This document shows, in pieces, positions 15,101 through 46,559 of a stretch of DNA of 64,000 bases. Both the position numbers and the translations under genes were made by a program. Origin of the DNA: Daphnia pulex (Eukaryota > Arthropoda > Branchiopoda > Diplostraca > Daphniidae); NCBI RefSeq assembly GCF_021134715.1, contig NC_060019.1, positions 62,001 to 126,000 on the forward strand, written 5' to 3'. The notes beneath the pieces were generated by a model, which saw nothing but the letters and a program-made list of their open reading frames with translations, was not told the DNA's origin and ran no database searches. Each line of letters starts with the position of its first letter. Position 1 is the stretch's first letter.

Positions 15101-18100
15101 GTGTCGCTGCGATAAGCCGTTCTCGAGATATTCGCTTTCCAAATTTCAGGACTTCCTTGGGGCTCACTTGGTAAAAAAATCCAGAGGTTAGGTTAGGTTA
15201 CATCAACTTCTTCCGATTTTGACGAAAAAGACATAAAAGACGTGTTTTGACACGAGGAACTCGAATTTCGCAATATAAAACTCGTACGGCCACTTGGTAT
15301 CCCTCAAAACTCGATTCAAACACTTTAAAGTCAAAATTTTCACAAGTACCATCACTGAAAGTGGATGACTGATCAACCATATGGTTTCTTGTTCAGTTTT
15401 TCATTTAGAATCGAATAACGTTTGTCTGGTGTCGCTGCGATAAGCCGTTCTCGAGATATTCGCTTTCCAAATTTCAGGACTTCCTTGGGGCTCACTTGGT
15501 AAAAAAATCCAGAGGTTAGGTTAGGTTACATCAACTTCTTCCGATTTTGACGAAAAAGACATAAAAGACGTGTTTTGACACGAGGAACTCGAATTTCGCA
15601 ATATAAAACTCGTACGGCCACTTGGTATCCCTCAAAACTCGATTCAAACACTTTAAAGTCAAAATTTTCACAAGTACCATCACTGAAAGTGGATGACTGA
15701 TCAACCATATGGTTTCTTGTTCAGTTTTTCATTTAGAATCGAATAACGTTTGTCTGGTGTCGCTGCGATAAGCCGTTCTCGAGATATTCGCTTTCCAAAT
15801 TTCAGGACTTCCTTGGGGCTCACTTGGTAAAAAAATCCAGAGGTTAGGTTAGGTTACATCAACTTCTTCCGATTTTGACGAAAAAGACATAAAAGACGTG
15901 TTTTGACACGAGGAACTCGAATTTCGCAATATAAAACTCGTACGGCCACTTGGTATCCCTCAAAACTCGATTCAAACACTTGAAAGTCAAAATTTTCACA
16001 AGTACCATCACTGAAAGTGGATGACTGATCAACCATATGGTTTCTTGTTCAGTTTTTCATTTAGAATCGAATAACGTTTGTCTGGTGTCGCTGCGATTAG
16101 CCGTTCTCGAGATATTCGCTTTCCAAATTTCAGGACTTCCTTGGGGCTCACTTGGTAAAAAAATCCAGAGGTTAGGTTAGGTTACATCAACTTCTTCCGA
16201 TTTTGACGAAAAAGACATAAAAGACGTGTTTTGACACGAGGAACTCGAATTTCGCAATATAAAACTCGTACGGCCACTTGGTATCCCTCAAAACTCGATT
16301 CAAACACTTGAAAGTCAAAATTTTCACAAGTACCATCACTGAAAGTGGATGACTGATCAACCATATGGTTTCTTGTTCAGTTTTACATTTAGAATCGAAT
16401 AACGTTTGTCTGGTGTCGCTGCGATAAGCCGTTCTCGAGATATTCGCTTTCCAAATTACAGGACTTCCTTGGGGCTCACTTGGTAAAAAAATCCAGAGGT
16501 TAGGTTAGGTTACATCAACTTCTTCCGATTTTGACGAAAAAGACATAAAAGACGTTTTTTGACACGAGGAACTCGAATTTCGCAATATAAAACTCGTACG
16601 GCCACTTGGTATCCCTCAAAACTCGATTCAAACACTTGAAAGTCAAAATTTTCACAAGTACCATCACTGAAAGTGGATGACTGATCAACCATATGGTTTC
16701 TTGTTCAGTTTTACATTTAGAATCGAATAACGTTTGTCTGGTGTCGCTGCGATTAGCCGTTCTCGAGATATTCGCTTTCCAAATTTCAGGACTTCCTTGG
16801 GGCTCACTTGGTAAAAAAATCCAGAGGTTAGGTTAGGTTACATCAACTTCTTCCGATTTTGACGAAAAAGACATAAAAGACGTGTTTTGACACGAGGAAC
16901 TCGAATTTCGCAATATAAAACTCGTACGGCCACTTGGTATCCCTCAAAACTCGATTCAAACACTTGAAAGTCAAAATTTTCACAAGTACCATCACTGAAA
17001 GTGGATGACTGATCAACCATATGGTTTCTTGTTCAGTTTTTCATTTAGAATCGAATAACGTTTGTCTGGTGTCGCTGCGATTAGCCGTTCTCGAGATATT
17101 CTTTTTCCAAATTTCAGGACTTCCTTGGGGCTCACTTGGTAAAAAAATCCAGAGGTTAGGTTAGGTTACATCAACTTCTTCCGATTTTGACGAAAAAGAC
17201 ATAAAAGACGTGTTTTGACACGAGGAACTCGAATTTCGCAATATAAAACTCGTACGGCCACTTGGTATCCCTCAAAACTCGATTCAAACACTTAAAAGTC
17301 AAAATTTTCACAGGTACCATCACTGAAAGTGGATGACTGATCAACCATATGGTTTCTTGTTCAGTTTTCCATTTAGAATCGAATAACGTTTGTCTGGTGT
17401 CGCTGCGATTAGCCGTTCTCTAGATATTCGCTTTCCAAATTTCAGGACTTCCTTGGGGCTCACTTGGTAAAAAAATCCAGAGGTTAGGTTAGGTTACATC
17501 AACTTCTTCCGATTTTGACGAAAAAGACATAAAAGACGTGTTTTGACACGAGGAACTCGAATTTCGCAATATAAAACTCGTACGGCCACTTGGTATCCCT
17601 CAAAACTCGATTCAAACACTTGAAAGTCAAAATTTTCACAGGTACCATCACTGAAAGTGGATGACTGATCAACCATATGGTTTCTTGTTCAGTTTTCCAT
17701 TTAGAATCGAATAACGTTTGTCTGGTGTCGCTGCGATTAGCCGTTCTCTAGATATTCGCTTTCCAAATTTCAGGACTTCCTTGGGGCTCACTTGGTAAAA
17801 AAATCCAGAGGTTAGGTTAGGTTACATCAACTTCTTCCGATTTTGACGAAAAAGTCATAAAAGACGTGTTTTGACACGAGGAACTCGAATTTCGCAATAT
17901 AAAACTCGTACGGCCACTTGGTATCCCTCAAAACTCGATTCAAACACTTGAAAGTCAAAATTTTCACAGGTACCATCACTGAAAGTGGATGACTGATCAA
18001 CCATATGGTTTCTTGTTCAGTTTTCCATTTAGAATCGAATAACGTTTGTCTGGTGTCGCTGCGATTAGCCGTTCTCTAGATATTCGCTTTCCAAATTTCA

Positions 18101-19722
18101 GGACTTCCTTGGGGCTCACTTGGTAAAAAAATCCAGAAGTTAGGTTAGGTTACATCAACTTCTTCCGATTTTGACGAAAAAGACATAAAAGACGTGTTTT
18201 GACAAGAGGAACTCGAATTTCGCAATATAAAACTCGTACGGCCACTTGGTATCCCTCAAAACTCGATTCAAACACTTGAAAGTCAAAATTTTCACAAGTA
18301 CCATCACTGAAAGTGGATGACTGATCAACCATATGGTTTCTTGTTCAGTTTTTCATTTAGAATCGAATAACGTTTGTCTGGTGTCGCTGCGATTAGCCGT
18401 TCTCGAGATATTCGCTTTCCAAATTTCAGGACTTCCTTGGGGCTCACTTGGTAAAAAAATCCAGAGGTTAGGTTAGGTTACATCAACTTCTTCCGATTTT
18501 GACGAAAAAGACATAAAAGACGTGTTTTGACACGAGGAACTCGAATTTCGCAATATAAAACTCGTACGGCCACTTGGTATCCCTCAAAACTCGATTCAAA
18601 CACTTGAAAGTCAAAATTTTCACAAGTACCATCACTGAAAGTGGATGACTGATCAACCATATGGTTTCTTGTTCAGTTTTACATTTAGAATCGAATAACG
18701 TTTGTCTGGTGTCGCTGCGATAAGCCGTTCTCGAGATATTCGCTTTCCAAATTACAGGACTTCCTTGGGGCTCACTTGGTAAAAAAATCCAGAGGTTAGG
18801 TTAGGTTACATCAACTTCTTCCGATTTTGACGAAAAAGACATAAAAGACGTGTTTTGACACGAGGAACTCGAATTTCGCAATATAAAACTCGTACGGCCA
18901 CTTGGTATCCCTCAAAACTCGATTCAAACACTTGAAAGTCAAAATTTTCACAAGTACCATCACTGAAAGTGGATGACTGATCAACCATATGGTTTCTTGT
19001 TCAGTTTTACATTTAGAATCGAATAACGTTTGTCTGGTGTCGCTGCGATTAGCCGTTCTCGAGATATTCGCTTTCCAAATTTCAGGACTTCCTTGGGGCT
19101 CACTTGGTAAAAAAATCCAGAGGTTAGGTTAGGTTACATCAACTTCTTCCGATTTTGACGAAAAAGACATAAAAGACGTGTTTTGACACGAGGAACTCGA
19201 ATTTCGCAATATAAAACTCGTACGGCCACTTGGTATCCCTCAAAACTCGATTCAAACACTTGAAAGTCAAAATTTTCACAAGTACCATCACTGAAAGTGG
19301 ATGACTGATCAACCATATGGTTTCTTGTTTAGTTTTTCATTTAGAATCGAATAACGTTTGTCTGGTGTCGCTGCGATTAGCCGTTCTCGAGATATTCGCT
19401 TTCCAAATTTCAGGACTTCCTTGGGGCTCACTTGGTAAAAAAATCCAGAGGTTAGGTTAGGTTACATCAACTTCTTCCGATTTTGACGAAAAAGACATAA
19501 AAGACGTGTTTTGACACGAGGAACTCGAATTTCGCAATATAAAACTCGTGCGGCCACTTGGTATCCCTCAAAACTCGATTCAAATACTTGAAAGTCAAAA
19601 TTTTCACAAGTACCATCACTGAAAGTGGATGACTGATCAACCATACGGTTTCTTGTTCAGTTTTTCATTTAGAATCGAATAACGTTTGTCTGGTGTCGCT
19701 GCGATAAGCCGTTCTCGAGATA
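3112..19722. repeat. 328-bp subtelomeric satellite, about 50.6 copies
   Basis: Head-to-tail repeat with a 328-bp period. Units can be phased on the sequence GGTTAGGTTAGGTTA, whose downstream edge recurs near 3380, 3718, 4046 and then every 328 bp to 19462. One unit is 10 bp longer because GGCTCACTTG is doubled at 3671-3690. Units differ by a few substitutions that define subfamilies, for example TTTAAAG versus TTGAAAG, ACATAAAAG versus ACATTAAAG, and AGTTTTTCATTT versus AGTTTTACATTT. A 60-codon minus-strand frame is open in most units and broken in others with no sign of coding constraint. The last unit is cut in CTCGAGATA at 19722. Confidence 0.97.
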
Positions 19723-22700
19723 ACAATACTTAGAAAAACTCCTTCTACGAGCTCAGAAACATGCAATCTAGGGTATATTCTTGATCAGCATTTCACGCTG
19801 AACACGATGCGATCAAAATAAAATTTAGTTCCAAAACTTGCCACCAGGTGGCTTTGATTTCAATACTTAGAAAAAGGCACTTCTACTGCTCAGAACCATG
19901 TGAAACAAACATATTCTTGAACAGAATTTCACGCTGAGCACGATGCGATCAAAATAAAATTTAGTTCCAAAACTTGCCACCAGGTGGCGCTGATTTCAAT
20001 ACTTAGAAAAAGGCACTTCTACTGCTCAGGACCATGTGAAACAAACATCTTCTTGATCAGAATTTCACGCTGAGCACGATGCGATCAAAATAAAATTTAG
20101 TTCCAAAACTTGCCACCAGGTGGCGCTGATAGTTCCAAAACTTGCCACCAGGTGGCGCTGATTTCAACACTTAGAAAAAGGCACTTCTACTGCTCAGAAC
20201 CATGTGAAACAAACATATTCTTGATCAGAATTTCACGCTGAGCACGATGCGATCAAAATAAAATTTAGTTCCAAAACTTGCCACCAGGTGGCGCTGATAG
20301 TTCCAAGACTTGCCACCAGGTGGCGCTGATTTCAACACTTAGAAAAAGGCACTTCTACTGCTCAGAACCATGTGAAACAAACATATTCTTGATCAGAATT
20401 TCACGCTGAGCACGATGCGATCAAAATAAAATTTAGTTCCAAAACTTGCCACCAGGTGGCGCTGATTTCAATACTAAAAAAAGGCACTTCTACTGCTCAG
20501 AACCATGTGAAACAAACATATACTTGATCAGAATTTCACGCTGAGCACGATGCGATCAAAGTAAAATTTAGTTCCAAAACTTGCCACCAGGTGGCGCTGA
20601 CTTCAATACTTAGAAAAAGGCACTTCTACTGCTCAGAACCATTTGAAACAAACATATTCTTGATCAGAATTTTACGCTGAGCACGATGCGATCAAAATAA
20701 AATTTAGTTCCAAAACTTGCCACCAGGTGGCGCTGATAGTTCCAAAACTTGCCACCAGGTGGCGCTGATTTCAACACTTAGAAAAAGGCACTTCTACTGC
20801 TCAGAACCATGTGAAACAAACATATTCTTGTACAGAATTTCACGCTGAGCACGATGCGATCAAAATAAAATTTAGTTCCAAAACTTGCCACCAGGTGGCG
20901 CTGATAGTTCCAAAACTTGCCACCAGGTGGCGCTGATAGTTCCAAAACTTGCCACCAGGTGGCGCTGATTTCAATACTTAGAAAAAGGCACTTCTACTGC
21001 TCAGAACCATTTGAAACAAACATATTCTTGATCAGAATTTTACGCTGAGCACGATGCGATCAAAATAAAATTTAGTTCCAAAACTTGCCACCAGGTGGCG
21101 CTGATAGTTCCAAAACTTGCCACCAGGTGGCGCTGATTTCAACACTTAGAAAAAGGCACTTCTACTGCTCAGAACCATGTGAAACAAACATATTCTTGTA
21201 CAGAATTTCACGCTGAGCACGATGCGATCAAAATAAAATTTAGTTCCAAAACTTGCCACCAGGTGGCGCTGATTTCAATACTTAGAAAAAGGCACTTCTA
21301 CTGCTCAGAACCATTTGAAACAAACATATTCTTGATCAGAATTTTACGCTGAGCACGATGCGATCAAAATAAAATTTAGTTCCAAAACTTGCCACCAGGT
21401 GGCGCTGATAGTTCCAAAACTTGCCACCAGGTGGCGCTGATAGTTCCAAAACTTGCCACCAGGTGGCGCTGATTTCAATACTTAGAAAAAGGCACTTCTA
21501 CTGCTCAGAACCATGTGAAACAAACATATTCTTGATCAGAATTTCACGCTGAGCACGATGCGATCAAAATAAAATTTAGTTCCAAAACTTGCCACCAGGT
21601 GGCGCTGATAGTTCCAAAACTTGCCACCAGGTGGCGCTGATTTCAACACTTAGAAAAAGGCACTTCTACTGCTCAGAACCATGTGAAACAAACATATTCT
21701 TGATCAGAATTTCACGCTGAGCACGATGCGATCAAAATAAAATTTAGTTCCAAAACTTGCCACCAGGTGGCGCTGATTTCAATACTTAGAAAAAGGCACT
21801 TCTACTGCTCAGAACCATGTGAAACAAACATATTCTTGATCAGAATTTCACGCTGAGCACGATGCGATCAAAATAAAATTTAGTTCCAAAACTTGCCACC
21901 AGGTGGCGCTAATTTCAACACTTAGAAAAAGGCACTTCTACTGCTCAGAACCATGTGAAACAAACATATTCTTGATCAGAATTTTACGCTGAGCACGATG
22001 CGATCAAAATAAAATTTAGTTCCAAAACTTGCCACCAGGTGGCGCTGATAGTTCCAAAACTTGCCACCAGGTGGCGCTGATAGTTCCAAAACTTGCCACC
22101 AGGTGGCGCTGATTTCAATACTTAGAAAAAGGCACTTCTACTGCTCAGAACCATGTGAAACAAACATATTCTTGATCAGAATTTCACGCTGAGCACGATG
22201 CGATCAAAATAAAATTTAGTTCCAAAACTTGCCACCAGGTGGCGCTGATAGTTCCAAAACTTGCCACCAGGTGGCGCTGATTTCAACACTTAGAAAAAGG
22301 CACTTCTACTGCTCAGAACCATGTGAAACAAACATATTCTTGATCAGAATTTCACGCTGAGCACGATGCGATCAAAATAAAATTTAGTTCCAAAACTTGC
22401 CACCAGGTGGCGCTGATTTCAATACTTAGAAAAAGGCACTTCTACTGCTCAGAACCATGTGAAACAAACATATTCTTGATCAGAATTTCACGCTGAGCAC
22501 GATGCGATCAAAATAAAATTTAGTTCCAAAACTTGCCACCAGGTGGCGCTAATTTCAACACTTAGAAAAAGGCACTTCTACTGCTCAGAACCATGTGAAA
22601 CAAACATATTCTTGATCAGAATTTCACGCTGAGCACGATGCGATCAAAATAAAATTTAGTTCCAAAACTTGCCACCAGGTGGCGCTGATAGTTCCAAAAC

Positions 22701-25700
22701 TTGCCACCAGGTGGCGCTGATAGTTCCAAAACTTGCCACCAGGTGGCGCTGATTTCAACACTTAGAAAAAGGCACTTCTACTGCTCAGAACCATGTGAAA
22801 CAAACATATTCTTGATCAGAATTTCACGCTGAGCACGATGCGATCAAAATAAAATTTAGTTCCAAAACTTGCCACCAGGTGGCGCTGATTTCAATACTTA
22901 GAAAAAGGCACTTCTACTTCTCAGAACCATTTGAAACAAACATATTCTTGATCAGAATTTCACGCTGAGCACGATGCGATCAAAATAAAATTTAGTTCCA
23001 AAACTTGCCACCAGGTGGCGCTGATAGTTCCAAAACTTGCCACCAGGTGGCGCTGATTTCAACACTTAGAAAAAGGCACTTCTACTGCTCAGAACCATGT
23101 GAAACAAACATATTCTTGATCAGAATTTCACGCTGAGCACGATGCGATCAAAATAAAATTTAGTTCCAAAACTTGCCACCAGGTGGCGCTGATAGTTCCA
23201 AGACTTGCCACCAGGTGGCGCTGATTTCAACACTTAGAAAAAGGCACTTCTACTGCTCAGAACCATGTGAAACAAACATATTCTTGAACAGAATTTCACG
23301 CTGAGCACGATGCGATCAAAATAAAATTTAGTTCCAAAACTTGCCACCAGGTGGCGCTGATTTCAATACTTAGAAAAAGGCACTTCTACTGCTCAGAACC
23401 ATTTGAAACAAACATATTCTTGATCAGAATTTCACGCTGAGCACGATGCGATCAAAATAAAATTTAGTTCCAAAACTTGCCACCAGGTGGCGCTGATAGT
23501 TCCATAACTTGCCACCAGGTGGCGCTGATAGTTCCAAAACTTGCCACCAGGTGGCGCTGATTTCAATACTTAGAAAAAGGCACTTCAACTGCTCAGAATC
23601 ATGTGAAACAAACATATTCTTGATCAGAATTTCACGCTGAGCACGATGCGATCATAATAAAATTTAGTTCCAAAACTTGCCACCAGGTGGCGCTAATTTC
23701 AACACTTAGAAAAAGGCACTTCTACTGCTCAGAACCATGTGAAACAAACATATTCTTGTACAGAATTTCACGCTGAGCACGATGCGATCAAAATAAAATT
23801 TAGTTCCAAAACTTGCCACCAGGTGGCGCTGATTTCAATACTTAGAAAAAGGCACTTCTACTGCTCAGAACCATTTGAAACAAACATATTCTTGATCAGA
23901 ATTTTACGCTGAGCACGATGCGATCAAAATAAAATTTAGTTCCAAAACTTGCCACCAGGTAGCGCTGATAGTTCCAAAACTTGCCACAAGGTGGCGCTGA
24001 TAGTTCCAAAACTTGCCACCAGGTGGCGCTGATTTCAATACTTAGAAAAAGGCACTTCTACTGCTCAGAACCATGTGAAACAAACATATTCTTGATCAGA
24101 ATTTCACGCTGAGCACGATGCGATCAAAATAAAATTTAGTTCCAAAACTTGCCACCAGGTGGCGCTGATAGTTCCAAAACTTGCCACCAGGTGGCGCTGA
24201 TTTCAACACTTAGAAAAAGGCACTTCTACTGCTCAGAACCATGTGAAACAAACATATTCTTGATCAGAATTTCACGCTGAGCACGATGCGATCATAATAA
24301 AATTTAGTTCCAAAACTTGCCACCAGGTGGCGCTGATAGTTCCAAAACTTGCCACCAGGTGGCGCTGATTTCAACACTTAGAAAAAGGCACTTCTACTGC
24401 TCAGAACCATGTGAAACAAACATATTCTTGATCAGAATTTCACGCTGAGCACGATGCGATCAAAATAAAATTTAGTTCCAAAACTTGCCACCAGGTGGCG
24501 CTGATTTCAACACTTAGAAAAAAGCACTTCTACTGCTCAGAACCATGTGAAACAAACATATTCTTGATCAGAATTTCACGCTGAGCACGATGCGATCAAA
24601 ATAAAATTTAGTTCCAAAACTTGCCACCAGGTGGCGCTGATTTCAATACTTAGAAAAAGGCACTTCTACTGCTCAGAACCATTTGAAACAAACATATTCT
24701 TGATCAGAATTTTACGCTGAGCACGATGCGATCAAAATAAAATTTAGTTCCAAAACTTGCCACCAGGTGGCGCTGATAGTTCCAAAACTTGCCACCAGGT
24801 GGCGCTGATTTCAACACTTAGAAAAAGGCACTTCTACTGCTCAGAACCATGTGAAACAAACATATTCTTGATCAGAATTTCACGCTGAGCACGATGCGAT
24901 CAAAATAAAATTTAGTTCCAAAACTTGCCACCAGGTGGCGCTGATTTCAATACTTAGAAAAAGGCACTTCTACTGCTCAGAACCATGTGAAACAAACATA
25001 TTCTTGAACAGAATTTCACGCTGAGCACGATGCGATCAAAATAAAATTTAGTTCCAAAACTTGCCACCAGGTGGCGCTGATTTCAATACTTAGAAAAAGG
25101 CACTTCTACTGCTCAGAACCATTTGAAACAAACATATTCTTGATCAGAATTTCACGCTGAGCACGATGCGATCAAAATAAAATTTAGTTCCAAAACTTGC
25201 CACCAGGTGGCGCTGATTTCAACACTTAGAAAAAGGCACTTCTACTGCTCAGAACCATGTGAAACAAACATATTCTTGAACAGAATTTCACGCTGAGCAC
25301 GATGCGATCAAAATAAAATTTAGTTCCAAAACTTGCCACCAGGTGGCGCTGATTTCAATACTTAGAAAAAGGCACTTCTACTGCTCAGAACCATTTGAAA
25401 CAAACATATTCTTGATCAGAATTTTACGCTGAGCACGATGCGATCAAAATGAAATTTAGTTCCAAAACTTGCCACCAGGTGGCGCTGATTTCAATACTTA
25501 GAAAAAGGCACTTCTACTGCTCAGAACCATTTGAAACAAACATATTCTTGATCAGAATTTCACGCTGAGCACGATGCGATCAAAATAAAATTTAGTTCCA
25601 AAACTTGCCACCAGGTGGCGCTGATAGTTCCAAAACTTGCCACCAGGTGGCGCTGATTTCAACACTTAGAAAAAGGCACTTCTACTGCTCAGAACCATGT

Positions 25701-28700
25701 GAAACAAACATATTCTTGATCAGAATTTCACGCTGAGCACGATGCGATCAAAATAAAATTTAGTTCCAAAACTTGCCACCAGGTGGCGCTGATTTCAATA
25801 CTTAGAAAAAGGCACTTCTACTGCTCAGAACCATTTGAAACAAACATATTCTTGATCAGAATTTCACGCTGAGCACGATGCGATCAAAATAAAATTTAGT
25901 TCCAAAACTTGCCACCAGGTGGCGCTGATAGTTCCAAAACTTGCCACCAGGTGGCGCTGATTTCAACACTTAGAAAAAGGCACTTCTACTGCTCAGAACC
26001 ATGTGAAACAAACATATTCTTGATCAGAATTTCACGCTGAGCACGATGCGATCAAAATAAAATTTAGTTCCAAAACTTGCCACCAGGTGGCGCTGATTTC
26101 AATACTTAGAAAAAGGCACTTCTACTGCTCAGAACCATGTGAAACAAACATATTCTTGAACAGAATTTCACGCTGAGCACGATGCGATCAAAATAAAATT
26201 TAGTTCCAAAACTTGCCACCAGGTGGCGCTGATTTCAATACTTAGAAAAAGGCACTTCTACTGCTCAGAACCATTTGAAACAAACATATTCTTGATCAGA
26301 ATTTCACGCTGAGCACGATGCGATCAAAATAAAATTTAGTTCCAAAACTTGCCACCAGGTGGCGCTGATTTCAACACTTAGAAAAAGGCACTTCTACTGC
26401 TCAGAACCATGTGAAACAAACATATTCTTGAACAGAATTTCACGCTGAGCACGATGCGATCAAAATAAAATTTAGTTCCAAAACTTGCCACCAGGTGGCG
26501 CTGATTTCAATACTTAGAAAAAGGCACTTCTACTGCTCAGAACCATTTGAAACAAACATATTCTTGATCAGAATTTTACGCTGAGCACGATGCGATCAAA
26601 ATGAAATTTAGTTCCAAAACTTGCCACCAGGTGGCGCTGATAGTTCCATAACTTGCCACCAGGTGGCGCTGATAGTTCCAAAACTTGCCACCAGGTGGCG
26701 CTGATTTCAATACTTAGAAAAAGGCACTTCAACTGCTCAGAATCATGTGAAACAAACATATTCTTGATCAGAATTTCACGCTGAGCACGATGCGATCATA
26801 ATAAAATTTAGTTCCAAAACTTGCCACCAGGTGGCGCTAATTTCAACACTTAGAAAAAGGCACTTCTACTGCTCAGAACCATGTGAAACAAACATATTCT
26901 TGTACAGAATTTCACGCTGAGCACGATGCGATCAAAATAAAATTTAGTTCCAAAACTTGCCACCAGGTGGCGCTGATTTCAACACTTAGAAAAAGGCACT
27001 TCTACTGCTCAGAACCATGTGAAACAAACATATTCTTGATCAGAATTTCACGCTGAGCACGATGCGATCAAAATAAAATTTAGTTCCAAAACTTGCCACC
27101 AGGTGGCGCTGATAGTTCCAAGACTTGCCACCAGGTGGCGCTGATTTCAACACTTAGAAAAAGGCACTTCTACTGCTCAGAACCATGTGAAACAAACATA
27201 TTCTTGAACAGAATTTCACGCTGAGCACGATGCGATCAAAATAAAATTTAGTTCCAAAACTTGCCACCAGGTGGCGCTGATTTCAATACTTAGAAAAAGG
27301 CACTTCTACTGCTCAGAACCATTTGAAACAAACATATTCTTGATCAGAATTTCACGCTGAGCACGATGCGATCAAAATAAAATTTAGTTCCAAAACTTGC
27401 CACCAGGTGGCGCTGATAGTTCCATAACTTGCCACCAGGTGGCGCTGATAGTTCCAAAACTTGCCACCAGGTGGCGCTGATTTCAATACTTAGAAAAAGG
27501 CACTTCAACTGCTCAGAATCATGTGAAACAAACATATTCTTGATCAGAATTTCACGCTGAGCACGATGCGATCATAATAAAATTTAGTTCCAAAACTTGC
27601 CACCAGGTGGCGCTAATTTCAACACTTAGAAAAAGGCACTTCTACTGCTCAGAACCATGTGAAACAAACATATTCTTGTACAGAATTTCACGCTGAGCAC
27701 GATGCGATCAAAATAAAATTTAGTTCCAAAACTTGCCACCAGGTGGCGCTGATTTCAATACTTAGAAAAAGGCACTTCTACTGCTCAGAACCATTTGAAA
27801 CAAACATATTCTTGATCAGAATTTTACGCTGAGCACGATGCGATCAAAATAAAATTTAGTTCCAAAACTTGCCACCAGGTAGCGCTGATAGTTCCAAAAC
27901 TTGCCACCAGGTGGCGCTGATAGTTCCAAAACTTGCCACCAGGTGGCGCTGATTTCAATACTTAGAAAAAGGCACTTCTACTGCTCAGAACCATGTGAAA
28001 CAAACATATTCTTGATCAGAATTTCACGCTGAGCACGATGCGATCAAAATAAAATTTAGTTCCAAAACTTGCCACCAGGTGGCGCTGATAGTTCCAAAAC
28101 TTGCCACCAGGTGGCGCTGATTTCAACACTTAGAAAAAGGCACTTCTACTGCTCAGAACCATGTGAAACAAACATATTCTTGATCAGAATTTTACGCTGA
28201 GCACGATGCGATCAAAATAAAATTTAGTTCCAAAACTTGCCACCAGGTGGCGCTGATAGTTCCAAAACTTGCCACCAGGTGGCGCTGATTTCAACACTTA
28301 GAAAAAGGCACTTCTACTGCTCAGAACCATGTGAAACAAACATATTCTTGATCAGAATTTCACGCTGAGCACGATGCGATCAAAATAAAATTTAGTTCCA
28401 AAACTTGCCACCAGGTGGCGCTGATTTCAATACTTAGAAAAAGGCACTTCTACTGCTCAGAACCATGTGAAACAAACATATTCTTGAACAGAATTTCACG
28501 CTGAGCACGATGCGATCAAAATAAAATTTAGTTCCAAAACTTGCCACCAGGTGGCGCTGATTTCAATACTTAGAAAAAGGCACTTCTACTGCTCAGAACC
28601 ATTTGAAACAAACATATTCTTGATCAGAATTTCACGCTGAGCACGATGCGATCAAAATAAAATTTAGTTCCAAAACTTGCCACCAGGTGGCGCTGATTTC

Positions 28701-31700
28701 AACACTTAGAAAAAGGCACTTCTACTGCTCAGAACCATGTGAAACAAACATATTCTTGAACAGAATTTCACGCTGAGCACGATGCGATCAAAATAAAATT
28801 TAGTTCCAAAACTTGCCACCAGGTGGCGCTGATTTCAATACTTAGAAAAAGGCACTTCTACTGCTCAGAACCATTTGAAACAAACATATTCTTGATCAGA
28901 ATTTTACGCTGAGCACGATGCGATCAAAATGAAATTTAGTTCCAAAACTTGCCACCAGGTGGCGCTGATAGTTCCATAACTTGCCACCAGGTGGCGCTGA
29001 TAGTTCCAAAACTTGCCACCAGGTGGCGCTGATTTCAATACTTAGAAAAAGGCACTTCAACTGCTCAGAATCATGTGAAACAAACATATTCTTGATCAGA
29101 ATTTCACGCTGAGCACGATGCGATCATAATAAAATTTAGTTCCAAAACTTGCCACCAGGTGGCGCTAATTTCAACACTTAGAAAAAGGCACTTCTACTGC
29201 TCAGAACCATGTGAAACAAACATATTCTTGTACAGAATTTCACGCTGAGCACGATGCGATCAAAATAAAATTTAGTTCCAAAACTTGCCACCAGGTGGCG
29301 CTGATTTCAATACTTAGAAAAAGGCACTTCTACTGCTCAGAACCATGTGAAACAAACATATTCTTGATCAGAATTTCACGCTGAGCACGATGCGATCAAA
29401 ATAAAATTTAGTTCCAAAACTTGCCACCAGGTGGCGCTGATAGTTCCAAAACTTGCCACCAGGTGGCGCTGATTTCAACACTTAGAAAAAGGCACTTCTA
29501 CTGCTCAGAACCATGTGAAACAAACATATTCTTGATCAGAATTTCACGCTGAGCACGATGCGATCAAAATAAAATTTAGTTCCAAAACTTGCCACCAGGT
29601 GGCGCTGATTTCAATACTTAGAAAAAGGCACTTCTACTGCTCAGAACCATGTGAAACAAACATATTCTTGATCAGAATTTCACGCTGAGCACGATGCGAT
29701 CAAAATAAAATTTAGTTCCAAAACTTGCCACCAGGTGGCGCTGATAGTTCCAAGACTTGCCACCAGGTGGCGCTGATTTCAACACTTAGAAAAAGGCACT
29801 TCTACTGCTCAGAACCATGTGAAACAAACATATTCTTGAACAGAATTTCACGCTGAGCACGATGCGATCAAAATAAAATTTAGTTCCAAAACTTGCCACC
29901 AGGTGGCGCTGATTTCAATACTTAGAAAAAGGCACTTCTACTGCTCAGAACCATTTGAAACAAACATATTCTTGATCAGAATTTTACGCTGAGCACGATG
30001 CGATCAAAATGAAATTTAGTTCCAAAACTTGCCACCAGGTGGCGCTGATAGTTCCATAACTTGCCACCAGGTGGCGCTGATAGTTCCAAAACTTGCCACC
30101 AGGTGGCGCTGATTTCAATACTTAGAAAAAGGCACTTCAACTGCTCAGAATCATGTGAAACAAACATATTCTTGATCAGAATTTCACGCTGAGCACGATG
30201 CGATCATAATAAAATTTAGTTCCAAAACTTGCCACCAGGTGGCGCTAATTTCAACACTTAGAAAAAGGCACTTCTACTGCTCAGAACCATGTGAAACAAA
30301 CATATTCTTGTACAGAATTTCACGCTGAGCACGATGCGATCAAAATAAAATTTAGTTCCAAAACTTGCCACCAGGTGGCGCTGATTTCAATACTTAGAAA
30401 AAGGCACTTCTACTGCTCAGAACCATGTGAAACAAACATATTCTTGATCAGAATTTCACGCTGAGCACGATGCGATCAAAATAAAATTTAGTTCCAAAAC
30501 TTGCCACCAGGTGGCGCTGATAGTTCCAAGACTTGCCACCAGGTGGCGCTGATTTCAACACTTAGAAAAAGGCACTTCTACTGCTCAGAACCATGTGAAA
30601 CAAACATATTCTTGAACAGAATTTCACGCTGAGCACGATGCGATCAAAATAAAATTTAGTTCCAAAACTTGCCACCAGGTGGCGCTGATTTCAATACTTA
30701 GAAAAAGGCACTTCTACTGCTCAGAACCATTTGAAACAAACATATTCTTGATCAGAATTTTACGCTGAGCACGATGCGATCAAAATGAAATTTAGTTCCA
30801 AAACTTGCCACCAGGTGGCGCTGATAGTTCCATAACTTGCCACCAGGTGGCGCTGATAGTTCCAAAACTTGCCACCAGGTGGCGCTGATTTCAATACTTA
30901 GAAAAAGGCACTTCAACTGCTCAGAATCATGTGAAACAAACATATTCTTGATCAGAATTTCACGCTGAGCACGATGCGATCATAATAAAATTTAGTTCCA
31001 AAACTTGCCACCAGGTGGCGCTAATTTCAACACTTAGAAAAAGGCACTTCTACTGCTCAGAACCATGTGAAACAAACATATTCTTGTACAGAATTTCACG
31101 CTGAGCACGATGCGATCAAAATAAAATTTAGTTCCAAAACTTGCCACCAGGTGGCGCTGATTTCAATACTTAGAAAAAGGCATTTCTACTGCTCAGAACC
31201 ATGTGAAACAAACATATTCTTGATCAGAATTTCACGCTGAGCACGATGCGATCAAAATAAAATTTAGTTCCAAAACTTGCCACCAGGTGGCGCTGATAGT
31301 TCCAAAACTTGCCACCAGGTGGCGCTGATTTCAACACTTAGAAAAAGGCACTTCTACTGCTCAGAACCATGTGAAACAAACATATTCTTGATCAGAATTT
31401 CACGCTGAGCACGATGCGATCAAAATAAAATTTAGTTCCAAAACTTGCCACCAGGTGGCGCTGATTTCAATACTTAGAAAAAGGCACTTCTACTGCTCAG
31501 AACCATGTGAAACAAACATATTCTTGTACAGAATTTCACGCTGAGCACGATGCGATCAAAATAAAATTTAGTTCCAAAACTTGCCACCAGGTGGCGCTGA
31601 TTTCAATACTTAGAAAAAGGCACTTCTACTGCTCAGAACCATGTGAAACAAACATATTCTTGATCAGAATTTCACGCTGAGCACGATGCGATGAAAATAA

Positions 31701-34700
31701 AATTTAGTTCCAAAACTTGCCACCAGGTGGCGCTGATAGTTCCAAAACTTGCCACCAGGTGGCGCTGATTTCAACACTTAGAAAAAGGCACTTCTACTGC
31801 TCAGAACCATTTGAAACAAACATATTCTTGATCAGAATTTCACGCTGAGCACGATGCGATCAAAATAAAATTTAGTTCCAAAACTTGCCACCAGGTGGCG
31901 CTGATAGTTCCAAAACTTGCCACCAGGTGGCGCTGATTTCAACACTTAGAAAAAGGCACTTCTACTGCTCAGAACCATGTGAAACAAACATATTCTTGAT
32001 CAGAATTTCACGCTGAGCACGATGCGATCAAAATAAAATTTAGTTCCAAAACTTGCCACCAGGTGGCGCTGATAGTTCCAAGACTTGCCACCAGGTGGCG
32101 CTGATTTCAACACTTAGAAAAAGGCACTTCTACTGCTCAGAACCATGTGAAACAAACATATTCTTGAACAGAATTTCACGCTGAGCACGATGCGATCAAA
32201 ATAAAATTTAGTTCCAAAACTTGCCACCAGGTGGCGCTGATTTCAATACTTAGAAAAAGGCACTTCTACTGCTCAGAACCATTTGAAACAAACATATTCT
32301 TGATCAGAATTTTACGCTGAGCACGATGCGATCAAAATGAAATTTAGTTCCAAAACTTGCCACCAGGTGGCGCTGATAGTTCCATAACTTGCCACCAGGT
32401 GGCGCTGATAGTTCCAAAACTTGCCACCAGGTGGCGCTGATTTCAATACTTAGAAAAAGGCACTTCAACTGCTCAGAATCATGTGAAACAAACATATTCT
32501 TGATCAGAATTTCACGCTGAGCACGATGCGATCATAATAAAATTTAGTTCCAAAACTTGCCACCAGGTGGCGCTAATTTCAACACTTAGAAAAAGGCACT
32601 TCTACTGCTCAGAACCATGTGAAACAAACATATTCTTGTACAGAATTTCACGCTGAGCACGATGCGATCAAAATAAAATTTAGTTCCAAAACTTGCCACC
32701 AGGTGGCGCTGATTTCAATACTTAGAAAAAGGCACTTCTACTGCTCAGAACCATGTGAAACAAACATATTCTTGATCAGAATTTCACGCTGAGCACGATG
32801 CGATCAAAATAAAATTTAGTTCCAAAACTTGCCACCAGGTGGCGCTGATAGTTCCAAAACTTGCCACCAGGTGGCGCTGATTTCAACACTTAGAAAAAGG
32901 CACTTCTACTGCTCAGAACCATGTGAAACAAACATATTCTTGATCAGAATTTCACGCTGAGCACGATGCGATCAAAATAAAATTTAGTTCCAAAACTTGC
33001 CACCAGGTGGCGCTGATAGTTCCAAGACTTGCCACCAGGTGGCGCTGATTTCAACACTTAGAAAAAGGCACTTCTACTGCTCAGAACCATGTGAAACAAA
33101 CATATTCTTGAACAGAATTTCACGCTGAGCACGATGCGATCAAAATAAAATTTAGTTCCAAAACTTGCCACCAGGTGGCGCTGATAGTTCCATAACTTGC
33201 CACCAGGTGGCGCTGATAGTTCCAAAACTTGCCACCAGGTGGCGCTGATTTCAATACTTAGAAAAAGGCACTTCCAACTGCTCAGAATCATGTGAAACAA
33301 ACATATTCTTGATCAGAATTTCACGCTGAGCACGATGCGATCATAATAAAATTTAGTTCCAAAACTTGCCACCAGGTGGCGCTGATAGTTCCAAAACTTG
33401 CCACCAGGTGGCGCTGATTTCAATACTTAGAAAAAGGCACTTCTACTGCTCAGAACCATGTGAATCAAACATATTCTTGATCAGAATTTCACGCTGAGCA
33501 CGATGCGATGAAAATAAAATTTAGTTCCAAAACTTGCCACCAGGTGGCGCTGATAGTTCCAAAACTTGCCACCAGGTGGCGCACTTAGAAAAAGGCACTT
33601 CTACTGCTCAGAACCATGTGAAACAAACATATTCTTGATCAGAATTTCACGCTGAGCACGATGCGATCAAAATAAAATTTAGTTCCAAAACTTGCCACCA
33701 GGTGGCGCTGATTTCAATACTTAGAAAAAGGCACTTCTACTGCTCAGAACCATTTGAAACAAACATATTCTTGATCAGAATTTTACGCTGAGCACGATGC
33801 GATCAAAATAAAATTTAGTTCCAAAACTTGCCACCAGGTGGCGCTGATAGTTCCAAACTTGCCACCAGGTGGCGCTGATAGTTCCAAAACTTGCCACCAG
33901 GTGGCGCTGATTTCAATACTTAGAAAAAGGCACTTCTACTGCTCAGAACCATGTGAAACAAACATATTCTTGATCAGAATTTCACGCTGAGCACGATGCG
34001 ATCAAAATAAAATTTAGTTCCAAAACTTGCCACCAGGTGGCGCTGATAGTTCCAAAACTTGCCACCAGGTGGCGCTGATTTCAACACTTAGAAAAAGGCA
34101 CTTCTACTGCTCAGAACCATGTGAAACAAACATATTCTTGATCAGAATTTCACGCTGAGCACGATGCGATCATAATAAAATTTAGTTCCAAAACTTGCCA
34201 CCAGGTGGCGCTGATTTCAATACTTAGAAACAGGCACTTCTACTGCTCAGAACCATTTGAAACAAACATATTCTTGATCAGAATTTCACGCTGAGCACGA
34301 TGCGATCATAATAAAATTTAGTTCCAAAACTTGCCACCAGGTGGCGCTGATGCGATTATAATAAAATTTAGTTCCAAAACTTGCCACCAGGTGGCGCTGA
34401 TTTCAACACTTAGAAAAAGGCACTTCTACTGCTCAGAACCATGTGAAACAAACATATTCTTGATCAGAATTTCACGCTGAGCACGATGCGATCAAAATAA
34501 AATTTAGTTCCAAAACTTGCCACCAGGTGGCGCTGATAGTTCCAAAACTTGCCACCAGGTGGCGCTGATAGTTCCAAAACTTGCCACCAGGTGGCGCTGA
34601 TAGTTCCAAAACTTGCCACCAGGTGGCGCTGATTTCAACACTTAGAAAAAGGCACTTCTACTGCTCAGAACCATGTGAAACAAACATATTCTTGATCAGC

Positions 34701-35428
34701 ATTTCACGCTGAGCACGATGCGATCAAAATAAAATTTAGTTCCAAAACTTGCCACCAGGTGGCGCTGATAGTTCCAAAACTTGCCACCAGGTGGCGCTGA
34801 TTTCAATACTTTGAAACAGGCACTTCTACTGCTCAGAACCATTTGAAACAAACAAATTCTTGATCAGAATATCACGCTTAGCACGATGCGATCATAATAA
34901 AATTTAGTTCCAAAACTTGCCACCAGGTGGCGCTGATTTCAATACTTAGAAACAGGCACTTCTACTGCTCAGAACCATTTGAAACAAACATATTCTTGAT
35001 CAGAATTTCACGCTGAGCACGATGCGATCATAATAAAATTTAGTTCCAAAACTTGCCACCAGGTGGCGCTGATGCGATTATAATAAAATTTAGTTCCAAA
35101 ACTTGCCACCAGGTGGCGCTGATTTCAATACTTAGAAACAGGCACTTCTACTGCTCAGAACCATTTGAAACAAACAAATTCTTGATCAAAATTTCACGCT
35201 GAGCACGATGCGATCATAATAAAATTTAGTTCCAAAACTTGCCACCAGGTGGCGCTGATTTCAATACTTAGAAACAGGCACTTCTACTGCTCAGAACCAT
35301 TTGTAACAAACATATCCTTGATCAGAATTTCACGCTGAGCACGATGCGATCATAATAAAATTTAGTTCCAAAACTTGCCACCAGGTGGCGCTGATTTCAA
35401 TACTTAGAAACAGGCACTTCTACTGCTC
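19723..35428. repeat. Modular satellite (136-bp backbone plus 32-bp modules) with CTCF-like motifs
   Basis: The backbone runs from TTCAATACTTAGAAAAAGGC through GATCAGAATTTCACGCTGAG to CAAAATAAAATTT and recurs every 136 bp when one motif module is present. The 32-bp module, running from AGTTCCAAAAC to GGTGGCGCTGAT, is present one to four times per unit, giving units of 136, 168, 200 or 232 bp. A higher-order repeat of 776 bp (five backbones plus three extra modules, eight motifs) is seen at 26568, 27344, 28896, 29976, 30752 and 32304, with some spacings of 1552 or 1080. Edge units at 19723-19860 and 34200-35428 are the most diverged. Confidence 0.96.
19836..35390 (+). promoter_or_regulatory. 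Field of CTCF-consensus-like sites (CCACCAGGTGGCGCT), same orientation
   Basis: Each 32-bp module contains CCACCAGGTGGCGCT, which agrees with the known CTCF core (CCASYAGRKGGCRS). Its right half, AGGTGGCGC, also agrees with the shorter motif described for Drosophila CTCF. The asymmetric GCGCT half is always on the right, so all sites face the same way. The core GCCACC-A-GGTGGC is also a 6-bp inverted repeat around one base, and it contains the E-box CAGGTG. From eight motifs per 776 bp I estimate about 160 sites; they were not counted one by one. Sequence match is seen; occupancy by CTCF is inference. Confidence 0.6.
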
Positions 35429-38400
35429 AAAATACACTCAAAAGAACCACTTTGACAAAGAGAGAACATGAATATTGGATATTAAATAATATAACCAATG
35501 GAATTTCTTTAAAACTCAATTCAAAATTCCCTAAAGCATTAACTTTGTTATTATCTGCTTGTTTTCGCTTCGATGTTTATGAGTTTGGCAACATGGCAAG
35601 TGCTGAAGTGTTATTTGTGTAGCAGAATCAATTGGTTTTGGTAGTTGTTTGGCAGTTCATTTTCATTGGAATCAGCTAGCAGCCGGTAGCTATATTAATG
35701 TCATTTGGTTTTCAAATCCAATTAAGTTATTATTTCTTGAGTATTAATTATAGTTGTTCCCTGAATGGTTTTTAGAATGTAAGGTTTTTTGATCATGTGC
35801 TTTGTTGAATGTTATCAGTGTTGAGTTGACGCCTTTTCCAGATTGCAATTATTTGTGATTTTCAGTGACCAAGAACAAAATTTATTGAATCTGCATTTTC
35901 TGTTAAAGAATGCATGGATCCATGAAGACTGAATTGATTCATTTCACAATGTTCATGTGCACGGAAATTGGAATGGATTGTGCAGGGAGTATCATGCATG
36001 ACTAATTTGAGTTGCACAATACTGTTAAATTGGATACTGATCTATTGCATCATTGACTATGATTTCTCTGCAGGGTTGGATGGAGATCTGAATTTACTTA
36101 TTAATTGGCTCAACCAGATGACTTGATTGTATCGGATCCAGACAGCATGCAATTTGAGTAATTATTGATGTGTCTTTTCACCCAGTCCTACTGGTACTTT
36201 CTGTTTAGTAATTTTGATAAGCAGTTATTCTGTTTTTCTTTTCCATTTGTTTTTATTTATTTTTTATGTTTTTTAATCAGAAGGATTTAACCTGCACGAA
36301 CAAGGCATCATAGTTATTTTGTTATTAAAATCAATTAGATAGACCAAAAGAACTTATTCTTGTTATTGTTTCAGGTTAAAGACAGTGACATCGGAAGAAG
36401 AAAGCTCCTGTTAAAGTTTTATCCAATTGGCAATTGTCATTTTTTACCGTAAGATGGCTTCGAGTTTATCTCTTGACATCCGGTATCAGATTCAGATCGT
36501 CTGCAATTGAACAAAACACGAGTGACGAGAGCGTTTTGTTTGTGTTTGTTTGCTGAAAAAAGCCTCCATTAATTGCACATAGTTTTGTTGCAAAAACCCA
36601 CATGTGAACTGCTACATTCAATTTAGTGAAGTTGTCATCCTAATAGCAATTTTAACATTTTTTTTTGTTTCTTATTTAGATATGGCCTATAAGACCAAAT
36701 GTCTGGCTGTCTCCAAAACAAGGCAATGACCACACGTTCAACGCGGATCATTCGTTTTTTCATCGAAATTGACTCATTTTATCTTCTGAATTGCTCAGGA
36801 AACCTGATTGGCGTTACCTGTTAACTTCATCTTGTCATGCCACTGAATTTAAATTTCGTTTACATTTTATTTCTTGATCTAGCCATTTAGGTAATGACCG
36901 GGAAGATGCGGCCTATACATGAACATCATTTAGGCGGCCAGCATCATTCGACTACCCAACCGAGTCTCAACACAGCACGGAGTTTTACACTTTAAATATT
37001 TGGCTGTTCGCAATTTGTGATGGCGTTTCCTTGGACGAGATATGATTTGGCGAGAAAAATATTGCGTGAGTATCTCATATTTGATCTTTATATTGTCTTT
37101 TACGTCATTGTTATTTATGAATTTAATGTCGACGAGGTAGAGCAGGGACGTGTTTGTTTTCAAGTTTTCTTTCTGTTCAAGTTTTGCGAGTATTTCAAGG
37201 ACTCATCTACACTTACGTCTACCTAATGTCTATCTAATATTTAGGGACGATTTCATGCTGTCCTTTACCATGGACCAATCTCTCATTCCATCTGAGAACT
37301 TTGGATAACTGATTGGTGGTTTCATGTGTAAGTTCACTTGTCATCTTACTGATCTTTCTTCGTTGCAGTCTTATATATGTTTTATAAGTATTGATCTGCA
37401 CTTACGTCTATCTAATGTTTAAGAGGCAATTTCGAGTGTAGGCTATACCGATAACTGTATAATTATTCTTTTAGATCAGACATCAAGCACATTGATGACA
37501 CAAATTATAAACAAGGTTACTTTTATTTTTTTTATTTACGGGTTCCAAATTACAGGTTTCTAAATTGACATGACAGACTTTATGAGAAGTAATGTCCTTT
37601 CAAGAAAGAAACAAGGTCCCTTGTTTGCTAATCCAATAGCTGCTACCCTTGAATCTCCCCTTTTACTTCCTTAAACGGGCCCTCTTGATTTGAGGTAATG
37701 TTTTCTGTCGCTACAATTTTTTGAAAAGTATTGTCATCCAAATTAAATGTTCTGCTTACAGGGTAATCCTTTGCTACTTATTGTGGACTTCAACCATTGC
37801 CTGGAAGCCTGTAAACCAACCTTGAGAGCATGCTGTCATTCAAGACTGTTTAATTGTGTAGTTAGCTAAATTGCAAGTGCATATCTGGGCTCCCTTCTTT
37901 TCTGTGGCCCCGTTTCCCTAACTAACCACTAACCAACGCCCGCCGGTGGTCACTCACCCGCTGTGAAACCAGGAGGAGGGGAGGGCTCTGGTCGAACGGG
38001 GACTTGGAAGGTCCATGATCTGATGAAAACTTTTGGAGGGTCATGAGTCTAACCCGGAAGCCTAGTATGACTACATCTCCCCGGAAAAACTTGCCTCGTA
38101 CTTCTCTCTTCTTCTCGGTCCAGATACTATCTCTGGGGGCCGTAGACAAAACCTATAACAGCATGTGCGAGTTTATAAGAAGCAGCCCACTACCCAATGA
38201 AAGAAAAAGCTGTGGATTAGTTTAGCGGAAATCTGCGTCAGTCACGCAGATTTTCGCACAAATAGACCATCGCTTTTTGTCTCATTGCCGCAGCGGTGGT
38301 GGCGGGTTTGCAATAAACTCGTACAGTAGATAATGTCTTGAACCGAACGCTCTGTTTATTGAATTATTAAATAGAAAAAGAAAAAAAGGCTGGTTTAAAA

Positions 38401-40176
38401 TACAAGTTTTTTTATTCATTATTGACATTACATTGATTGGGCTTAATATTGGTTTATGTGGTTTAGGGTATAAATTTGGGGATTGAAAGGTGTTTGTTTG
38501 TGGGGTTTGAAGAATTGGAAGGTTTAAGTTTGTGGAGTTTGAAGATTAATTGGTAGGGATATGTTTGTGGGGTTATGGATTAACTGATTTTTTATCCAAA
38601 CTTAAATCACCCCTCCCTCCAACATCCTCCACTTTCCTTTCCCAATCCCGAAAACATGTTTATTATTTGTTTGACATGAACATCCCATATTTGTTTTTGT
38701 TGCTTCTTAACTTTTAAACGATAACTATGCACAGATACAATGACAATTTAACAATATATGATGATTGATGATGCAAATTTGGTAACACGACACCACCATC
38801 AAGGAACGACCAGTTAAACTAGATGCAGAAAGAACTGTTGCACACAAAATGATGAATTCTCTCTCTCATCAGCAACAAAGAATTGGATCTGGTGAAGGCA
38901 TTAATATCTTGAAGATTAACAACTTGAAAGGGAAAAGTAAATGTGAATATTATTGTCTTAAAGAACACAGTAATTCAAAATATTTTTGGTAAAATAGCTA
39001 ACCTGCAACAGAAATGACTTTTCTTCAGAAGACATAGGTTGTGAGCTCGCATTATTGGATTAAACCATTTCATTTCTACTGTCAAGAGCACCTAGTTGAC
39101 CAGGTACATGAAAACTTCAGCTGAAATTATCTGAAACATTAAGTCAAGAATGCAGTAAGAATCTTTAGCTAAAGATTATTTCATCTATTACTTAAAAACA
39201 GTTACTTGTTATCCCCAATGTCCGTTGTTAAACTTTTTAAGTAACTTATGAAAGTTACGACGTGTAATGTCATGTCTGTCTGTGATTGACTGTGCATTAG
39301 GTTTCAAAACTCATTACTAGATGTCGCCAGAGTCGCCGATGTTGTTCTTTCATCATGGTGAAACGAGTCGAAATGAGCGAAACAAATTGTTGCTAATTTA
39401 TGCTTATTCCTGTTATTTCAAATACCAAATTGAACTTCGTATCTTATGTAGGTTTATCTTTACCTAGTTTTCTTATTTTTATACTGTAGCAGCTTATTTC
39501 TTCAAATTCTAGATGCATGATACTGTCAGTCATTCCAACAAGTTGTTGACTCAGCGCTCAGTCAATTTCCATCCATTAGATCCTCATGCTGTCAAAAGCC
39601 TAAAACTCATATTTGAAGCAAACATATTGTGGAAATGTGGAATACAAATGTGCCGAGATTAGGTATTCCTCTTTACTGCTACCAGACAATTACAATTCAG
39701 ATTTTCATACAACATAGGTATTCTTGCTTATGAACCATAGGATTTTTTTCTGAATCTCGCAATTTTGGTGGTGTACCCTGCAACAGCACGTTTGTTGTTA
39801 TGGCTGTTTTTACTTTGGTTTAGAAGGCAACCCAGCTAAGAGATATAGGTAGAGTTAAATTTCTTATAGGTAAATTTGTGTTAATTTGTAAATAACAAAG
39901 AGAATTTCCTTGTTCCATTTCCACTTAGAGTTTCAGTGACCTGAAGAGTGTGAAGTGAACCACCTATCACTACGCTACTGCAATACTTCATGACTCTTTC
40001 TTTAGCATCAGAAAATTTATCTCAACATGTGGAGTAATGCTGTTGGTTGCTGTGCATTCCATTTTTACGGTTTTGTCATCATGAACTTTTCAGTGTGCTT
40101 CTTAGAAAAGGTAAAGATTGATATGCTTTATTCATTTTTATATTTTCATTAATGTATAACATTTTTTTTTTTACAG
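35429..40176. other. Gene-poor unique region between the satellite and first genes
   Basis: About 4.7 kb of AT-rich single-copy sequence. I find no protein-coding gene: open frames are short, unrelated to families I know, and without codon-like pattern. It holds splice-like boundaries discussed under the putative non-coding transcript, a 14-bp hairpin at 38225-38257, and an AATAAA at 38312-38317 on the + strand. Confidence 0.7.
38225..38257 (+). other. Strong hairpin, 14-bp stem and 5-base loop
   Basis: GCGGAAATCTGCGT (38225-38238) pairs with ACGCAGATTTTCGC (38244-38257), 14 pairs including one G-T, around the loop CAGTC. An AATAAA lies about 55 bases downstream (38312-38317). It is too short for a typical microRNA precursor and does not match the histone stem-loop; its role is unknown. 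Confidence 0.75.
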
Positions 40177-40682
40177 AGCACGCAGTTTCTTTGTGGAATC
40201 GTGTGGTCCTGGCACGGATATTCTTGAGCCAACGCTGGCTTTTGTCCACGACCAACGTTCTGCTCCATCCTTATCTTCCCGACGTACGCTCATCCAGCTT
40301 CTGCTTCATCACTTCGTACACAAAAATACAACTTGTCTTGCTTCACTGACGAGTTGGAACACTTCAGCCGTCGCTTCCGTGCCTCTGTTACACACCTGCA
40401 GTCACTCACCACGGGATTATGCCCAGGTACCCGACAATTTACTTATTTTCGTAGATTATCTATTCCAATAGTATACTTACTTGTGTCTGTAATAATTCCG
40501 AAATCAGGCCCTACTTGCGCGCTAAAAAGTTTTACTTAGACGTTTCTTTTTCTAACGCTAGATGGCTTAATTGTCAGCTGTCAAAACAGTCAGTTTCAGT
40601 TACTTTTAAAATCTCCTTAAACATTTATCGGCAGCTTTCGTTTTGAAATTTTTTAGTGAAAACTGACGATAACTATTCCACC

Positions 40683-46554: not shown

Positions 46555-46559
46555 ACTTC

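Follow-up and report, generated by a model that had tools for sequence, protein, structure and literature searches.

What role might a long run of co-oriented CTCF-type sites play at the end of a Daphnia pulex chromosome? This question is raised by the left end of contig C3, where positions 62001 to 126000 (C3:62001-126000, a stretch of 64,000 nucleotides referred to here as the window) hold a tandem satellite array at window positions 19723-35428. The assembly that contains it comprises 133.19 Mb in 13 contigs, namely 12 chromosomes and one 15,333-bp contig. Our analysis points to a satellite family that appears to be built round a CTCF site, with a family A of 136 bp + 32n, a sister family B of 127 bp, core variants on contig C10 and relic units of about 150 bp. 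Judging from the match of the repeat, CTCF very probably binds these arrays at high density. To the fuller explanation, that of a CTCF-binding subtelomeric satellite working as a polar boundary that also stops cohesin, somewhat in the manner of DXZ4, we give even chances.

Match of the satellite core to the CTCF motif

The scoring of the array with the human CTCF matrix MA0139.1, which has a maximum of 29.4 bits, reveals a usual site of about 26.3-26.4 bits and 164 forward-strand sites of at least 16 bits. The exact core, CCACCAGGTGGCGCT, occurs 159 times on the plus strand and 0 times on the minus strand, with a first start at 19977 and a last at 35378, all within 19723-35428, and the CTCF consensus CCASYAGRKGGCRSY also has 159 matches in the window, all of them in the array. 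The initial annotation had described about 160 co-oriented CTCF-consensus sites, a near-ideal match to the CTCF core and copies that all face right toward a gene-bearing interior, and each of these points is borne out by the counts, by a score of 26.3 of 29.4 bits on this matrix and by the gene-like open reading frames (ORFs) of the interior. On the reverse strand inside the array no site reaches 12 bits while 160 reach 10 bits; these scores of about 10 bits arise because the core is nearly palindromic, its reverse reading scoring 10.3 bits. The rest of the window, outside the array, contains two sites of at least 12 bits. The proposed comparison with shuffled satellite further strengthened the match, as none of 5000 dinucleotide shuffles made from the 136-bp unit reached 20 bits (best 18.6 bits, three at 16 bits or more), so that composition does not account for the core.

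From left to right, the window runs from a 496-bp satellite through a TTAGG tract, a 328-bp satellite and the CTCF-site array to gene-like ORFs, with the following features:

1..2302, plus strand: outer satellite of 496-bp units, best CTCF score 5.1 bits
2290..3114, minus strand: telomeric-type tract, (CTAAC)n on the plus strand, that is, TTAGG on the minus strand
3112..19722, plus strand: subtelomeric satellite of 328-bp units, from the TTAGG tract to the CTCF array, best CTCF score 5.0 bits
19723..35428, plus strand: CTCF-site satellite array, family A, units of 104 + 32n bp
19723..19860, plus strand: outer-edge unit with the altered core CCACCAGGTGGCTTTG (16.7 bits), by eye partly like sister family B
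19977..35392, plus strand: the 159 exact cores CCACCAGGTGGCGCT, co-oriented, with the 3' side (the predicted CTCF N-terminal side) toward the interior
20098..20162, plus strand: first 32-bp duplication, TAGTTCCAAAACTTGCCACCAGGTGGCGCTGA, consisting of GTTCC, a 5-bp linker and the 19-bp core
34505..34633, plus strand: run of four 32-bp modules, the longest among those listed
35429..64000, strand not applicable: interior DNA beyond the array, with gene-like ORFs (KH, BTB and BACK domains)

The 163 site spacings of the array consist of 96 of 136 bp, 61 of 32 bp and six others, from which it follows that each unit has 104 bp and, in addition, between one and four of the 32-bp modules. The earlier description of 32-bp modules therefore stands in part: the module exists and accounts for 61 of the 163 spacings, but the repeat is not simply 32 bp long. 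Duplicated separately, this module covers approximately one CTCF footprint, from GTTCC through the 5-bp linker to the end of the core, and its resemblance to the extended CTCF site described in sections of PMC12885311 is suggestive only. The distances of 32, 136 and 168 bp are close to whole DNA turns at 10.5 bp, which would place neighbouring sites on the same face of the DNA. With a G+C content of about 0.40-0.43, the array is AT-rich and lacks CpG-island composition.

Located 81.7-97.4 kb from the contig start, the array is a subtelomeric satellite of a family found at several ends near telomere-associated repeats. The telomere-side location given to it earlier holds in this sense, but the array does not adjoin the telomeric repeat, since 16.6 kb of the 328-bp satellite separates it from the nearest TTAGG tract.

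A family of inward-facing arrays at chromosome ends

Across the whole assembly the exact family A core was found 824 times in forward and 955 times in reverse orientation (1,779 in total, against 0 for the reversed pattern); among the 100 matches listed, all lie in the array at the right end of C1. Sister family B, with a 127-bp unit and the core GCCACTTGGTGGCGCT (19.9 bits), contributes 367 + 247 = 614 exact cores, its reversed pattern again giving 0, and AACTTGTCACTAGATGGCGCT occurs 85 times, all on C10 at 17.8-51.6 kb, with 28 copies of CCACTAGATGGCGCT among them. Arrays lie at no fewer than 15 of the 24 chromosome ends, on 10 of the 12 chromosomes; this is a minimum, as the map was compiled partly from incomplete match lists and the patterns intended to map all arrays gave few places. 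The arrays are distributed as follows (L, left end; R, right end):

Family A: C1 R, C2 R, C3 L, C4 L, C5 L, C8 R, C10 L, C10 R
Family B: C2 L, C3 R, C5 R, C6 L, C7 L, C7 R
Mixed A and B: C9 L

The arrays at C5 R and C7 R are each represented by one 200-bp sample taken 60 kb from the end, and five arrays (C1 R, C3 R, C5 L, C7 L and C10 R) are cut off by the end of their contig. The motif stands on the plus strand at left ends and on the minus strand at right ends, so that it points inward at 15 of 15 array-bearing ends; because the arrays share ancestry, these orientations are not independent events. Where a TTAGG tract, a satellite of the 328-bp type and an array were seen together (the window, C2 R, C9 L and C10 L), the array is innermost. 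A search for relatives of the satellite in viral contigs gave 0.

The inner array edges at C10:52049-52860 and C7:4700-5120, which belong to different families, share a 308-bp alignment of 90% identity that takes in relic units and the start of the flank. This common alignment may be read as a sign of exchange between chromosome ends.

The CTCF gene and CTCF-type sites outside the arrays

CTCF reads its core motif with fingers 3-7, its N-terminus lying at the 3' side of the motif. By using the human finger region as a query, we identified a best match on C12 (E 5e-65, 68% identity over 149 residues), whose main exon aligns to the human CTCF of PDB from finger 1 into finger 6; the absence of a CTCF gene from the species, which had been named as grounds for abandoning the assignment, is thus not the case. 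In fingers 3-5, 11 of the 12 base-reading positions (-1, 2, 3 and 6) are as in human, with fingers 3 and 4 identical and finger 5 differing at one position. Among the four positions, fingers 2, 7 and 9 each show two differences from human, finger 10 one and finger 11 three; finger 6, interrupted by an intron, also departs from human. In the exon preceding the fingers, NLAVYDFDEGEE aligns with human DVSVYDFEEEQQ, which carries the YDF motif, collinear into finger 1 (E 0.31); the assignment was made because of this collinear position and not because of the score. According to passages of PMC10656103, which cites Li et al. 2020, the YDF motif of human CTCF binds cohesin SA-Scc1. The D. pulex CTCF is named in PMC2889900, and the cloning of its N-terminal domain is reported in PMC7021899, as far as the excerpts of these two papers go.

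The same type of site is also enriched away from the arrays. CCASTAGRKGGCRSY has 30 sites outside the C10 array (58 in total minus the 28 within it) compared with five for the reversed control, and CCANTAGRKGGC has 395 sites, or at most 367 without the 28 C10-array sites, compared with 67. CTCF-type sites outside the known arrays are therefore about 5.5-6 times commoner than the reversed control. The fourth letter, counted by hand among the 100 CCANTAGRKGGC matches listed, is C in 52, G in 13, T in four and A in 31 (including two from the left-end array of C2), which indicates a greater tolerance of A in this genome than the human matrix shows. CCASYAGRKGGCRSY gives 1,960 matches in the whole assembly against 27 for its reversal; 1,779 of these are exact family A and 28 the C10 form, leaving at most 153 elsewhere. 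Taken together, the score, the CTCF gene with conserved core-reading fingers and the 5.5- to 6-fold site excess elsewhere uphold the CTCF identity well. In this respect, and in the inward direction of the arrays, the interpretation of the initial annotation is supported, while the boundary, loop anchor, cohesin trap or CTCF sink that it named would be possible roles. At C10:9477740-9477764, a dispersed CTCF-type site has GTTCCAAAA upstream as in the satellite module, with flanks that otherwise look unrelated.

Conservation within arrays and among relic units

Variation within arrays was measured on units of the commonest length only. Across the 96 units of 136 bp in the window's array, up to 32 columns in a row, AAATTTAGTTCCAAAACTTGCCACCAGGTGGC, are invariant, the next longest such run being 13; the run of 32 extends from AAATTTAGTTCC to CCACCAGGTGGC, that is, from GTTCC to the core, and takes in most of the module. 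The 15-bp core of this array is no quieter than 27 of 136 windows of the unit by mean variation and 41 of 136 by variable columns, and in the C5 L array 13 of 136 windows are as quiet as the core.

A longer view is provided by diverged relic units of about 150 bp, which border four arrays (C1 R, C2 L, C7 L and C10 L) on their inner side; none was seen by eye beside the window's array. These four edges were cut at a landmark outside the core, giving nine landmark-to-landmark units and four trailing stretches, and the resulting 13 were aligned with families A and B in 15 rows, with the qualification that C7L_0 and C2L_0 are hybrids with family B and that the C10 units are near-copies of each other. 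The best-kept 11-bp block of the alignment, landmark windows excepted, is TAGATGGCGCT (0.867 against a mean of 0.727). GRTGGC is kept in 14 of the 15 rows and GRTGGCGCY in 13, one trailing stretch having no core. The core scores 7.6-15.3 bits in the relics, 24.0 in the C10 form and 26.4 in family A. The conservation of the block TAGATGGCGCT suggests that the CTCF match may be maintained by selection. The initial annotation had called the motif the best-kept part of the unit, and this agrees with the longest invariant run of the window and with the best non-landmark block among relics, but not with C1 R, C6 L and C7 L, where the core is unremarkable. In family A, TTTCACGCTGAGCACGATG is flanked by TTGATC and GATCAA and may be another binding site.

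A possible polar boundary and its rivals

Given the inward arrays and a YDF motif like the human cohesin-docking one, each array would present CTCF N-termini to the chromosome interior. Cohesin extruding from the interior toward the telomere would then meet the arresting side and halt at the array. Published work offers parallels, as passages of PMC10656103 describe extrusion arrest only with sites in one direction, portions of PMC12885311 report insulation to be greater with the CTCF N-terminal side facing the enhancer, and the relevant part of PMC5899087 presents the mouse Dxz4 locus as a bank of co-oriented CTCF motifs that directs long-range contacts. By analogy with Dxz4, the array would form a polar boundary between telomere-associated satellites and genes. 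That the arrays stop cohesin coming from the interior, and keep the chromatin of the telomere-associated satellites apart from the arm with the genes, is in our judgment an evenly balanced proposition, drawn from the sequence and from this analogy.

Several observations count against this explanation. Among dispersed CTCF-type sites, GTTCC stands at the satellite distance in one of 30, and the upstream part of the satellite site, GTTCC with its 5-bp linker, agrees with the CAGCTGTTCC-type upstream motif at five of 10 letters; a looser search for GTTCC-type upstream sequence gave 27 matches, of which the C10 array holds 26. In three other arrays the core does not belong to the quietest parts, with 123 of 136 windows as quiet at C1 R, 119 of 127 at C7 L and 85 of 127 at C6 L. 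Column conservation in the alignment was uncorrelated with the human CTCF matrix (Spearman -0.12, 0.07 and -0.11, with C2L_last, which has lost the core, omitted from one of the three), and core substitutions in nine variants were no more CTCF-tolerant than random neighbours (fractions 0.08-0.69). CCAC is intact in 0 of the 13 relic stretches, and other blocks are kept too, such as TTTCACGCTGAGCACGATG, common to A and B. The YDF alignment is weak, the whole 86-aa exon matching three collagenase entries at E 0.15-0.19 compared with 0.38 for CTCF. End-to-end exchange alone could copy the orientation without selection, and no array was seen at nine of the 24 ends (C1 L, C4 R, C6 R, C8 L, C9 R, C11 L and R, C12 L and R) in sparse samples, each 200 bp to 10 kb long and taken from roughly the outer 65 kb.

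A strong rival, which we hold to be possible rather than probable, is a selfish or neutral repeat to which CTCF binds with no effect. Such a satellite would spread by ectopic exchange, and its occupancy would have no chromosomal role or would merely aid amplification, for example if fork stalling at a bound site duplicated one footprint. Strong homogenisation (four distinct sequences among 44 units of 136 bp at C1 R), the uneven presence seen at 15 of 24 ends, an orientation inherited through end-to-end exchange, the non-significant substitution and column-conservation tests and the independent duplication of the 32-bp module all fit this account; it is countered by the core being the best-kept non-landmark block among relics, in different families and at the inner array edges of four ends. 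Chance resemblance to a CTCF site with nothing bound is the least probable account of all. Satellite sequences do drift, and with many motifs to choose from a match may turn up post hoc, but a 26.4-bit score has a chance of 2.8e-10 per position, and CTCF is encoded and its motif enriched in the same genome.

Another ligand, whether of the Snail/E-box or YY1 type or a binder of palindromes, is very improbable. The family A core does contain CAGGTG and the perfect dyad GCCACC-A-GGTGGC, family B retains a CACTTG E-box, and relics hold AGATGGCG, which is near the YY1 type. Set against this, the C10 and relic cores preserve neither the CAGGTG box nor the dyad, the ATGG of YY1 does not occur in families A and B, and GRTGGCGCY is kept in 13 of 15 aligned units. 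The E-box or palindrome ligand and the YY1-type ligand are accordingly both disfavoured, and the Snail/E-box alternative that had been put forward as a possible refutation is weakened, CAGGTG being missing from the variants TCACTAGATGGCGCT and AATAGATGGCGCTG. An element of the telomeric repeat-containing RNA (TERRA) type, in which array-bound CTCF would drive transcription toward the telomere, is improbable as well. Human subtelomeres offer a precedent in the part of PMC5727389 that deals with them, and at C6 L the sister array begins directly at the TTAGG tract; the 16.6 kb of 328-bp satellite between the window's array and its TTAGG tract and a base composition unlike that of a CpG island speak against it.

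Relation to known CTCF-bearing repeats

DXZ4-type macrosatellites have kilobase-long units. The array shares with them tandem units with co-oriented CTCF motifs and differs in the length of its units, 104 + 32n bp; because the unit is short and located at many chromosome ends, the array is not a member of the DXZ4 class. Generic subtelomeric satellites are homogenised, common to several ends and fixed in orientation, features that the arrays display as well, and what sets the arrays apart is that nearly every unit carries a near-ideal site for an architectural protein encoded by the genome.

The likeness with DXZ4/Dxz4 itself lies in a tandem repeat that bears, according to portions of PMC5899087, a bank of CTCF motifs, all pointing one way in mouse; their orientation directs long-range contacts. 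It occupies one X locus, where human has 10-100 copies, among them two oppositely oriented sets, and mouse has 14. In the window's array, by contrast, 159 exact cores follow each other at distances of mostly 32 or 136 bp, and there are arrays at many ends. D4Z4 at 4q35 resembles the favoured explanation in being a tandem repeat described, in the part of PMC2639723 concerned, as a CTCF-dependent insulator, yet its human unit is 3.3 kb, in contrast to the short units found here on 10 of 12 chromosomes. According to sections of PMC5727389, most human chromosome ends have subtelomeric CTCF/cohesin sites, and CTCF sites are likewise at many ends here; the human motifs lie within a few kb of the telomere and are tied to a CpG island, in contrast to the kilobase-long AT-rich satellites of D. 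pulex, often many kb from TTAGG.

The initial annotation knew of no described satellite of this kind in crustaceans, and in agreement with this no CTCF-site satellite of this kind was found for arthropods in a limited search of the open-access literature covering titles and the starts of abstracts. The available text of a D. pulex tandem-repeat survey (PMC3152781) contains no 'subtelom', and that of PMC9498494 has no mention of 'CTCF'. By comparison with these systems, the array would represent a new form of CTCF-bearing tandem repeat, DXZ4-like in its working if the reading proposed here is right.

Other features of the window and of chromosome ends

Beyond the array, two ORFs at 43752-46403 and 50645-51970 of the window look related and, by eye, coiled-coil-like, the first having a KH domain; they may reflect a duplication. 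The minus-strand ORFs with BACK and BTB domains at 56354-58540 perhaps form a single gene. On the outer side, C3:29501-65114, which includes positions 1-3114 of the window, has several TTAGG tracts of the same orientation, some adjoining the 496-bp satellite, with kilobases of other sequence between them, and about 29 kb without these repeats lies beyond the outermost tract. Between TTAGG tracts, C3:30001-50000 contains no ORF of at least 200 aa with common starts. The right ends of C4 and C11, where no CTCF array was seen, carry a minisatellite of CACGCCAGAGCACGCCAATG-like units.

Implications

Polar CTCF-cohesin boundaries are best known in vertebrates, and the extent of their use in arthropods is disputed. 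Where a chromosome has two arrays, their inward direction makes them convergent. A more speculative extension of the polar-boundary explanation, which we regard as unlikely, is that the inward super-arrays (about 2,500 sites compared with at most about 150 strict-consensus sites elsewhere) would be terminal cohesin stops and loop anchors holding a large share of CTCF, that they would have grown by footprint duplication and that the amplified families would have moved toward the ideal site, a direction that we infer. Co-oriented arrays of known density at some ends and apparently not at others, combined with a YDF-bearing CTCF, would make polar boundaries testable in an arthropod. They also provide a setting in which to study how repeats titrate CTCF, and to ask whether the footprint of a protein can set the unit of satellite growth.

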